Source of the DNA: Zhihengliuella flava
Lineage (GTDB): Bacteria; Actinomycetota; Actinomycetes; Actinomycetales; Micrococcaceae
Reading direction: 5' to 3'
NCBI RefSeq assembly: GCF_015751895.1
Contig: NZ_JADOTZ010000001.1
Location: 2,480,001-2,544,000, forward strand
DNA: 64,000 bases
Shown here: positions 2,943 to 4,775 of the stretch, one piece after another
Numbering within the stretch: position 1 is the first letter of the stretch
Layout: every line of letters begins with the position of its first letter
Position numbers and translations under genes: made by a program
The notes under the pieces: model-generated
The model's database searches: none
What the model saw: the letters and a program-made list of their open reading frames with translations, nothing else
What the model was told of the DNA's origin: nothing

Positions 2943-3752
2943 TTAGCTCGCCGAGGCCCCGGGGGCGGCGACCAGCAACACATGCAGTGTGCCACGCCCG
3001 GCCGCGGCCGTGAGCGCCTCGGCTTCGGCCGACGTCGCCGCGACGACGACGGTCTCCTGCGGACCTGCCGTGGAGGTCAAGGCGCCACCGGCCGACTCCG
3101 CGCTCGGTACCCACAACACGGTGAGCCCGGTGGCCACGCGCGAGGAGGCCACCGGTTGCTCGTAGCCGTTGCCCTCTGTGAGAACCACGTCGACGTGCTG
3201 GCCGGGGCTGAGCAACTCCACCGTCTGCGTATCGACGGGCTGCACAGGCACAGCAACGGTGCCGGGCTCGGTGCCGGCGAGAAGATGCTCGCCCACCAGA
3301 AGGCCCTGATGGAGCGGGGTCCCGGCGGGAGCAGCAATGGCCAATTGTCCGGTCAGAGGGTCAGCTCCGCCGCCGTCCCGGGCAGCGGCCCGCACGGCCG
3401 GCGGTAGCGCGTGCGCCAAGACCTCCGCAACGTCGAGGTCCTGGGCGCCGAGCACGTGGCCTGCGGGCAAATCCCGGGCCGCTACCGTGATGCGCAGCGT
3501 GTCTGCGCGCTCCGGCGCGACGGCGTTCAGCGCGCACGCCACCGCGACCGCTGCGAGCGCGGCGGCTAGGGGTCGCCGATACTTCGCTGCAACGTCCCGC
3601 CACGTGCGTCGATACCTGACGGACCCGGACCGGCTACGGCTCGACCGGAGGCGCGGCTGCCGAGGGGTCGGCGGTCCGCCGTCGCGCCGTTCCTGCCGCT
3701 GGTCACCGCCGCCGGCGCGCGGATCTGTTGCTGGTGTTCGTCTCTGGCCCAT
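2943..3752 (-). CDS. SAF-domain protein, CpaB/RcpC-like
   Basis: About 269 residues: a basic, low-complexity N-terminal ~60 residues, one membrane segment (about 62-79, Ala/Val-rich) and an exported part starting with a SAF domain (about 86-150, containing VAARDLPAGHVL and DLDVAEVL). This is the architecture of CpaB/RcpC Flp-pilus assembly proteins, but no pilus genes are nearby, so a pilus role is not supported. Start: ATG at 3752 chosen; a TTG at 3764 directly after a GGGAGGG stretch is the alternative and adds four residues. It is separated from upstream fmdB by a strong terminator, so it needs its own promoter. Anchored extracytoplasmic protein; function unknown. Confidence 0.7.
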   Translation of the reverse strand: MGQRRTPATDPRAGGGDQRQERRDGGPPTPRQPRLRSSRSRSGSVRYRRTWRDVAAKYRRPLAAALAAVAVACALNAVAPERADTLRITVAARDLPAGHVLGAQDLDVAEVLAHALPPAVRAAARDGGGADPLTGQLAIAAPAGTPLHQGLLVGEHLLAGTEPGTVAVPVQPVDTQTVELLSPGQHVDVVLTEGNGYEQPVASSRVATGLTVLWVPSAESAGGALTSTAGPQETVVVAATSAEAEALTAAAGRGTLHVLLVAAPGASAS

Positions 3753-3780
3753 GCCAGCAGTCAAAACCCTCCCACCGCGT

Positions 3781-3812
3781 AAAAAAACCGCCCACAGCGC
3801 GGCTGTGGGCGG
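3781..3812 (-). terminator. Intrinsic terminator of the fmdB-like gene
   Basis: Perfect 11-bp stem (3788-3798 with 3802-3812, three-base loop) followed on the minus strand by seven T residues (3787-3781). It lies 53 bases after the fmdB stop and before the SAF gene, so fmdB is probably monocistronic. It is the only hairpin I see here with a classical U tract. Confidence 0.9.
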
Positions 3813-3864
3813 AAGGTCGAGTCGCTGATCCTTGTGGACAGCGAGTCAACGGGCAGCGGAGGAG

Positions 3865-4062
3865 CTACGAGTTTGACGACTCGGCAGCGCGCGAATCGGT
3901 CCGGTAGAAACCTGAGCCTTTGAAGGTAATGCCGCCGACGTTGAAGTTCTTGCGCAGTGGACCTTCGCAGGACGTGCAGGTGGTCAGCGAGTCATCGCTA
4001 AAGGACTGAAAAATCTCAAACTCATCCCCGCAGCTCTTGCAGGCGTAGGCGTAGGTCGGCAT
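3865..4062 (-). CDS. FmdB-family zinc-ribbon protein
   Basis: 65 residues beginning MPTYAYAC with four cysteines at 8, 11, 29 and 32 (CKSC and CTSC), the zinc-ribbon signature of the FmdB/CxxC-CxxC-SSSS family; the C terminus is Ser-rich as in the family. A good Shine-Dalgarno sequence (AGAAGGAAG) precedes the ATG. The family is small, soluble and still without a settled function, although the founding gene sits in formamidase operons. Immediately upstream is a CIRCE-like inverted repeat and just downstream a strong terminator, so the gene looks like a stand-alone unit under HrcA control, suggesting a role in proteostasis or heat response (inference). Confidence 0.92.
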   Translation of the reverse strand: MPTYAYACKSCGDEFEIFQSFSDDSLTTCTSCEGPLRKNFNVGGITFKGSGFYRTDSRAAESSNS

Positions 4063-4072
4063 AGGCTTCCTT

Positions 4073-4104
4073 CTAGCACTCGGATAGTCTGAGTGCCAAT
4101 TCTA
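4073..4104 (-). promoter_or_regulatory. CIRCE-like HrcA operator with overlapping -10 promoter element
   Basis: The inverted repeat CTAGCACTC-N9-GAGTGCCAA occupies 4073-4099 and matches the CIRCE consensus TTAGCACTC-N9-GAGTGCTAA in spacing and in 8 of 9 bases of each arm. On the minus strand a TAGAAT -10 hexamer (4104-4099) adjoins it, placing the predicted transcript start within the repeat. The ribosome-binding site of the fmdB-like gene follows directly. CIRCE is the known binding site of the heat-shock repressor HrcA; occupation here is predicted. Confidence 0.8.
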
Positions 4105-4110
4105 GCATCG

Positions 4111-4686
4111 TCACAACCAGGTCAGCCCGCTCATGGTGGCGACGGCGTCGACGGGCTGATCGGTCAGTTCGCGCGGTAGCGAGCCGGCCGGCAGGAGTTC
4201 GTGTTCGTAGACCACCGCGATGAGCTGAGCTGCGCTGCCCTGGCGCCGTACCTCGGCAATCAGCCGGTCGTAATATCCCCCACCCTGACCCAGTCGGGTT
4301 CCGCTGCGGTCCACGCTGGTGGCCGGCAGGAGGATCACGTCAGCGGCCGCTGCGGCGATGGCCTCGGCCACGGGACCCACGGGCTCGTTGACCGGCGCCA
4401 AGGCGGACGGCCGCAGCTCGATGTCTGGGTGCCACGTCACCCACCCCAACTGAAAGTTGGGGCGGCACACGGGCAGGATGACTTGTGTGCCGGCTGCATG
4501 CGCGCGTTCCAGAGCGGCGGACGGGTCCGGTTCCGTTCCCGTCGCGGAATAGCCGGCGACGACGCGAGCCCCGGTGAGAGTCGTATCAAGGGCCGTGCAC
4601 AGTTCGGCCGACTCGCGATGACGCTCCGCCGCGTCCATGGCGCGCCGGCGGCGCCTGACCTCGGCCCGCAAGCGTGACTTCACCAT
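4111..4686 (-). CDS. 5-formyltetrahydrofolate cyclo-ligase
   Basis: Converts 5-formyl-THF to 5,10-methenyl-THF with ATP, in cytosolic one-carbon metabolism. The signature loop RLGQGGGYYDR is present near residue 140, and an N-terminal basic helix (KSRLRAEVRRRRRAM) supplies the ATP-side contacts typical of the family. The 191-residue length is normal. The ATG at 4686 is chosen because a TACGAT -10 element ends 7 bases before it, consistent with a leaderless start; upstream in-frame ATG (4695) and GTG (4707) are alternatives. It precedes fmdB on the same strand, but the -10 of fmdB begins just after this stop codon. Confidence 0.9.
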   Translation of the reverse strand: MVKSRLRAEVRRRRRAMDAAERHRESAELCTALDTTLTGARVVAGYSATGTEPDPSAALERAHAAGTQVILPVCRPNFQLGWVTWHPDIELRPSALAPVNEPVGPVAEAIAAAAADVILLPATSVDRSGTRLGQGGGYYDRLIAEVRRQGSAAQLIAVVYEHELLPAGSLPRELTDQPVDAVATMSGLTWL

Positions 4687-4693
4687 GAACGTC

Positions 4694-4699
4694 ATCGTA
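4694..4699 (-). promoter_or_regulatory. Leaderless -10 element (TACGAT)
   Basis: TACGAT on the minus strand ends 7 bases before the ATG at 4686, with no Shine-Dalgarno sequence; it favours the shorter start of the cyclo-ligase gene. Confidence 0.5.
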
Positions 4700-4775
4700 G
4701 CCAGCACCGGCGTGTGCTCGCTATGAGGTGCCGTTCGGGCTCACCTGCGAAGAGCGCGGGGCGGGGCTGGCCCAC

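Follow-up and report, generated by a model that had tools for sequence, protein, structure and literature searches.

It is very probable that the fmdB gene of Zhihengliuella flava is a heat-shock unit repressed by HrcA and that its product is an ortholog of the mycobacterial protein Ruc (Rv0991c). The gene lies on the minus strand (3865..4062) of the window, the whole 64-kb stretch of DNA that was analyzed, and a CIRCE operator stands just upstream of its start codon. The regulatory claim first made for this locus is correct and is already known in kind, and the locus itself is ordinary.

The operator and its promoter

The palindrome at 4073..4099 reads CTAGCACTC-N9-GAGTGCCAA (TTGGCACTC-N9-GAGTGCTAG on the minus strand, which is that of the gene) and has 2 mismatches to the CIRCE consensus, the inverted repeat TTAGCACTC-N9-GAGTGCTAA. 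No other match within 3 mismatches occurs in the 64 kb, and 100 dinucleotide-preserving shuffles gave none. An extended -10-like element, TGC-TAGAAT (TGCTAGAAT), occupies 4107-4099 on the same strand, and the ribosome-binding site AAGGAAG (4072-4066, minus strand, called from a reading of the sequence) follows between CIRCE and the ATG. The sequence-only reading had placed a CIRCE-like operator between a TAGAAT -10 box and the ribosome site. The operator is real and the order of the elements holds, but they are not strictly separate, since base 4099 is common to both: the last T of the -10 is the first T of CIRCE.

The -10-like element, called from the sequence and from its conserved register, probably acts as a promoter. 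A promoter scan that additionally requires a -35 found no site between 3600 and 4800, and the expected -35 region falls in the 3' end of the gene upstream, which codes for a 5-formyltetrahydrofolate cyclo-ligase. A search of the window for other Rfam RNAs found none at gathering thresholds.

The HrcA regulon

The genome assembly (2,895,551 bp in one contig) was scanned for CIRCE with up to 3 mismatches, with the reversed pattern as a control. The control matched nowhere, and six CIRCE-like sites were found at four promoters: one at hrcA(-dnaJ), two at groES-groEL1, two at groEL2 and one at fmdB. Pfam confirms HrcA, DnaJ, Cpn10 and two Cpn60 proteins at these loci. The hrcA gene (match E 1.4e-49) lies behind its own CIRCE, where a TA-NNN-T hexamer (TAGACT) stands in the same register as the -10-like element of fmdB; this register is absent from the groES and groEL2 sites of the genome. 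The proposal that the FmdB gene belongs to the HrcA regulon is thus supported by the presence of hrcA, by the further CIRCE sites at the groES/groEL genes and by the conservation of the operator ahead of orthologs.

In the proposed mechanism, HrcA bound at 4073-4099 would cover the transcription start and block RNA polymerase, and the transcript, with the -10 box fused to the operator, would start inside CIRCE. Heat or protein-folding stress would titrate or inactivate HrcA, and fmdB would then be switched on along with groES-groEL1, groEL2 and hrcA-dnaJ. The product would be the ortholog of Ruc, which combines a zinc ribbon with a disordered tail rich in Ser and Ala. In M. tuberculosis, oxidation and zinc release turn Ruc into a holdase, which hands its clients to DnaK.

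Conservation among relatives

The order-level sample comprised 39 genomes, the own genome included, of which 35 have an FmdB match, and the upstream region of each of the 35 was scanned. With a tolerance of 4 mismatches, CIRCE stands before fmdB in 23 of the 35, as it does in all 5 genomes of the genus, and is absent in the other 12. When each upstream region was shuffled by mononucleotides 200 times, no match arose, save in one locus outside the order (L216, 1/200). HrcA is found in 38 of the 39 genomes, and these are also the ones in which a CIRCE with 3 mismatches or fewer occurs at least once. The sole relative that lacks hrcA (G006) also lacks CIRCE, and it has kept fmdB.

The arrangement extends to the class, where the operator precedes fmdB in 18 of 21 genomes. 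In the three others, it was missing by the scan in two (G175 and G250), and the 200 nt upstream show none in the third (G261). Six of the 18, all of family f19, are missed by a strict pattern because of a mismatch in the core, and in family f18, which is Streptomyces-sized, the operator is present in 7 of 7 genomes. The phylum sample of 246 genomes holds FmdB in 232 and HrcA in 221. The strict pattern of core plus start matched in 17 of these genomes (11 + 6, the own included) and the control in 0 in both; the matches are sparse outside the class. In family f39, six genomes (G064, G091, G102, G178, G210 and G232) have HrcA and no FmdB match.

The position of the operator relative to the promoter is also conserved. 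In 22 of the 23 operator-bearing relatives, the last base of a TA-NNN-T hexamer coincides with the first base of CIRCE or lies at most 2 bases before it, compared to 15 of 4600 positions chosen at random in these loci, and the prevailing form of the junction is TAGAA/TTGGCACTC. The gap between CIRCE and the start codon ranges from 10 nt in the genus up to 95 nt in L061. A fixed register on one side and a varying distance on the other show that it is the promoter, and not the start codon, to which the operator is tied.

In Bacillus, CIRCE can also act in the mRNA, as a hairpin of the 5' leader that affects stability. The palindrome of the window lies in the predicted 5' leader, near the ribosome site, and one could consider such a role in place of an HrcA site. 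This is very improbable, since the sequence is conserved beyond mere pairing, the site is distant from the start codon in several relatives and the one relative without hrcA is without any CIRCE site. That the palindrome, with its two mismatches to the consensus, is a product of chance deserves next to no credence; it was rejected on the shuffles of the window, the reversed control across the genome and the conservation in the genus, order and class samples.

A pattern scan of GTDB genomes for a CIRCE core followed after 4-34 nt by ATG-CCN-ACN-TAY gave at least 118 stretches, of which 80 are among the matches listed; these give no frequency, since the pattern selects for CIRCE. A complete FmdB-type gene lies behind CIRCE in 74 of the 80. 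The remaining six include three that are cut at the end of the sequence (L074, L104 and L114), one that looks frameshifted (L080) and two that are unrelated (L115 and L119). The taxon labels of the matches listed are mostly Actinomycetota, the exceptions being L093 (Riflebacteria), L101 (Ignavibacteriales) and L108 (Acidobacteriota). The protein of L108 is nearly equal to that of L126, which is labelled Actinomycetes. In L093 and L101, a perfect CIRCE stands directly before the FmdB-type gene, and the link between CIRCE and FmdB may reach beyond the Actinomycetota.

The transcription unit

The gene begins with the ATG at 4062 and codes for 65 amino acids, with a CxxC-N17-CxxC zinc ribbon, an FKGSGFYRTD motif and a tail of 9 residues. 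Its assignment to the FmdB family as a zinc-ribbon gene was borne out by both family models, TIGR02605 (64.2 bits, cut-off 31.3) and PF09723 (56.8, cut-off 34.4), and the four cysteines and the MPTY and FKGSGFY-TD motifs are all intact. The predicted structure was set aside for its low confidence (mean pLDDT 60), and a search by sequence for a solved structure found none at E up to 0.1.

The terminator scan found an intrinsic terminator with an 11-bp stem, a 3-nt loop and a T run behind the gene (3812-3788, minus strand). It separates fmdB from a downstream CpaB/RcpC-like Flp pilus assembly gene with an SAF domain (2943-3764, minus strand). Directly upstream, on the same strand, lies the cyclo-ligase gene (4111-4707, stop codon at 4111-4113). 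As only 48 nt separate its end from the ATG of fmdB and the scan turned up no terminator in this gap, read-through into fmdB is possible. Of the monocistronic unit closed by a strong terminator that had been described for this locus, the terminator stands, and the monocistronic character is not secured.

Expression of fmdB could come mainly from this read-through, leaving CIRCE as a minor or vestigial control. The close spacing would allow it, and the cyclo-ligase gene is the same-strand upstream neighbor in 24 of the 32 relatives in which fmdB was parsed. The fixed register of the -10 with CIRCE in 22 of 23 relatives indicates a separate promoter for fmdB, however, and a repressor sitting on the operator would hinder read-through too, making this explanation improbable. 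Repression of the gene's own promoter by HrcA remains the preferred reading.

Relation to Ruc of M. tuberculosis

In M. tuberculosis, HrcA is reported to repress ruc directly together with the chaperonin genes, and Ruc is up at 45 C and high at 37 C in an hrcA mutant (PMC7448276). The HrcA targets given in PMC8557902 are groEL2, groES-groEL1, rv0991c-rv0990c and hrcA-dnaJ2, and a list in PMC8223512, which cites Stewart et al. 2002, has groES, groEL1, groEL2 and Rv0991c. Since the regulon of Z. flava is the one published for M. tuberculosis, the link is known and the locus is another ortholog. The sequence-only reading had presented the membership of an FmdB gene in the HrcA regulon as a new tie to protein folding; for Ruc, by the account in PMC7448276, this tie had already been published. 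Among the literature matches listed, FmdB is nowhere named together with CIRCE or HrcA.

The two systems share the FmdB-type CxxC-N17-CxxC ribbon, an HrcA site at the promoter and the same regulon partners, and a mycobacterial homolog (L138) has the MPTY and GFYRTD motifs in common with the window protein. They differ in the tail, which makes up about half of the 110-aa Ruc compared to 9 residues after the motif in the window protein. They also differ in the promoter. The ruc gene is described as having a SigH promoter (PMC7448276), and Rv0991c appears among the SigH-dependent genes in PMC4803200, whereas the window gene has the extended -10-like element. In M. tuberculosis the gene is given as part of the operon rv0991c-rv0990c (PMC8557902), whereas in the window a terminator follows fmdB.

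Ruc is described as a zinc-binding holdase that is activated by oxidation, with its chaperone activity shown (PMC7448276). The same source likens it to Hsp33, a redox-regulated holdase with a four-cysteine zinc switch that is also activated by oxidation, although the two have, by its account, no sequence similarity. The control of actinobacterial chaperonins by CIRCE and HrcA, for example in Bifidobacterium (PMC9004370), uses the same operator consensus and regulator, but the passages of that paper on Bifidobacterium name groEL, groES and hrcA only, and no FmdB gene.

A tail of nine residues

The disordered tail of the window protein is almost gone. The 9 residues after GFYRTD (3865-3894, minus strand) are the second shortest among 147 rows, a few of them duplicates, for which the median is 53. 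G006, which alone among the relatives has no hrcA, has the shortest tail, of 4 residues. Within the genus, three of the four further species have tails of 14-17 residues, and the fourth (L044) has a 107-aa protein. The protein of L044 is identical to that of L131, a Zhihengliuella sp. MAG.

In M. tuberculosis, residues 1-49 of Ruc alone are reported not to prevent the aggregation of luciferase (PMC7448276). Given this inactive truncation and a disordered hydrophilic tail of only 9 residues, the window version may be weak as a holdase. The Ruc homologs described in the same source have tails of 7 to 61 residues.

One could go further and suppose that the operator works and that the FmdB of this genus, its client-binding tail nearly lost, is no longer a Ruc-type chaperone. 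The short tails of the window protein and of three other species of the genus fit this supposition, as does the inactive truncation of Ruc. The long protein of L044, the intact cysteines and GFYRTD motif of the window protein and the short end of the reported range of homolog tails speak against it, and it is considered unlikely, if worth keeping in mind. Another role for the short-tailed form, such as zinc storage or an association with the ribosome or GroEL, is unlikely to the same degree. The reading preferred here is that the product is an ortholog of Ruc and would be a holdase, possibly a weak one.

Homologs without cysteines

Twelve of the 74 complete genes among the matches listed code for proteins with no cysteine at all (L072, L076, L084, L085, L094, L100, L123, L124, L127, L129, L145 and L150). 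In these, conserved ETGET-like and EA-HP segments replace the CxxC pairs, and MPTY, FKG-GFY-TD and the Ser-rich tail are kept. Family f42 of the unselected phylum sample has the cysteine-less type in each of its 8 genomes (L261, L264-L269 and L271). The members are labelled Ilumatobacteraceae or Acidimicrobiaceae, or carry general or doubtful labels. Three of them (L072, L094 and L123) are labelled as Bifidobacterium breve MAGs, and these labels look wrong, since their FmdB proteins are 92-97% identical to that of L150, an Ilumatobacteraceae MAG.

In a tree of 164 rows, duplicates included, and of few columns (60), a single change accounts for the cysteine-less rows (SH-aLRT 94), and by this measure the cysteine-less homologs are a clade of single origin. 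In all five proteins tested, the family cut-offs are not reached, the best scores being 16.1 bits compared to 34.4 for Pfam and 17.3 compared to 31.3 for NCBIfam, and one had no match. The homology of the clade to FmdB is suggested by MPTY, FKG-GFY-TD, the single clade in the tree and CIRCE in the 12 cases selected for it. The model of the L150 protein is a small beta-sheet with a pLDDT of about 91-93 over residues 1-40, for which Foldseek gave no match at E up to 0.001. A second fold search brought up chains of ribosome entries, the size of ribosomal proteins (about 49 residues), with Z of 4.6 or less, and these were rejected as structural relatives for being too weak.

All 17 genomes with the cysteine-less type that were checked have HrcA. 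CIRCE precedes the cysteine-less gene in the 12 cases that were selected for it, but of the 8 unselected cases just one (G127) has it, and the cyclo-ligase gene was detected upstream in 0 of 18 rows, which leaves orthology without support from the neighborhood. These two counts limit what can be claimed for the cysteine-less homologs. The idea that the cysteine-less gene is an additional paralog in genomes that also have a normal Ruc was considered and dropped, as 16 of 17 genomes have a single match with alignment A3. The second match with that alignment is a weak one, in G181; with alignment A1, G068, G127 and G181 have two matches each, and the cysteine-less gene may be a paralog in these three.

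According to Becker et al., the C8S,C11S and C29S,C32S forms of Ruc bind no zinc and are chaperones in the reduced form (PMC7448276). Since Ruc with serines in place of these cysteines is active without oxidation, the cysteine-less homologs may be natural chaperones without a switch. It is conceivable, though a tentative view, that in one actinobacterial clade Ruc lost its zinc-binding cysteines in a single event and kept its fold, FKG-GFY-TD and tail, and in part CIRCE, becoming a chaperone that has no redox switch, would be ready at all times and would be controlled by HrcA only, at the level of transcription. FmdB-family members with CxxU have been reported (PMC2398784) and point in the opposite direction: those forms of FmdB that have cysteines would carry out thiol chemistry.

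The loss of the cysteines could, alternatively, be a zinc-saving change. Zinc-free paralogs of the zinc-ribbon proteins of the ribosome are a precedent for a change of this kind. A description of cysteine-less FmdB or Ruc proteins was not found in the literature, which does not prove that there is none.

Significance

The published link between HrcA and Ruc of M. tuberculosis occurs widely among actinobacteria, with the operator and the -10 box fused, and harmless organisms that have it are open to study. The cysteine-less homologs are a natural experiment on whether Ruc can do its work without redox control. If their proposed history is true, zinc and redox control would be a dispensable addition to Ruc, and the core of MPTY and GFY-TD would be its working part.
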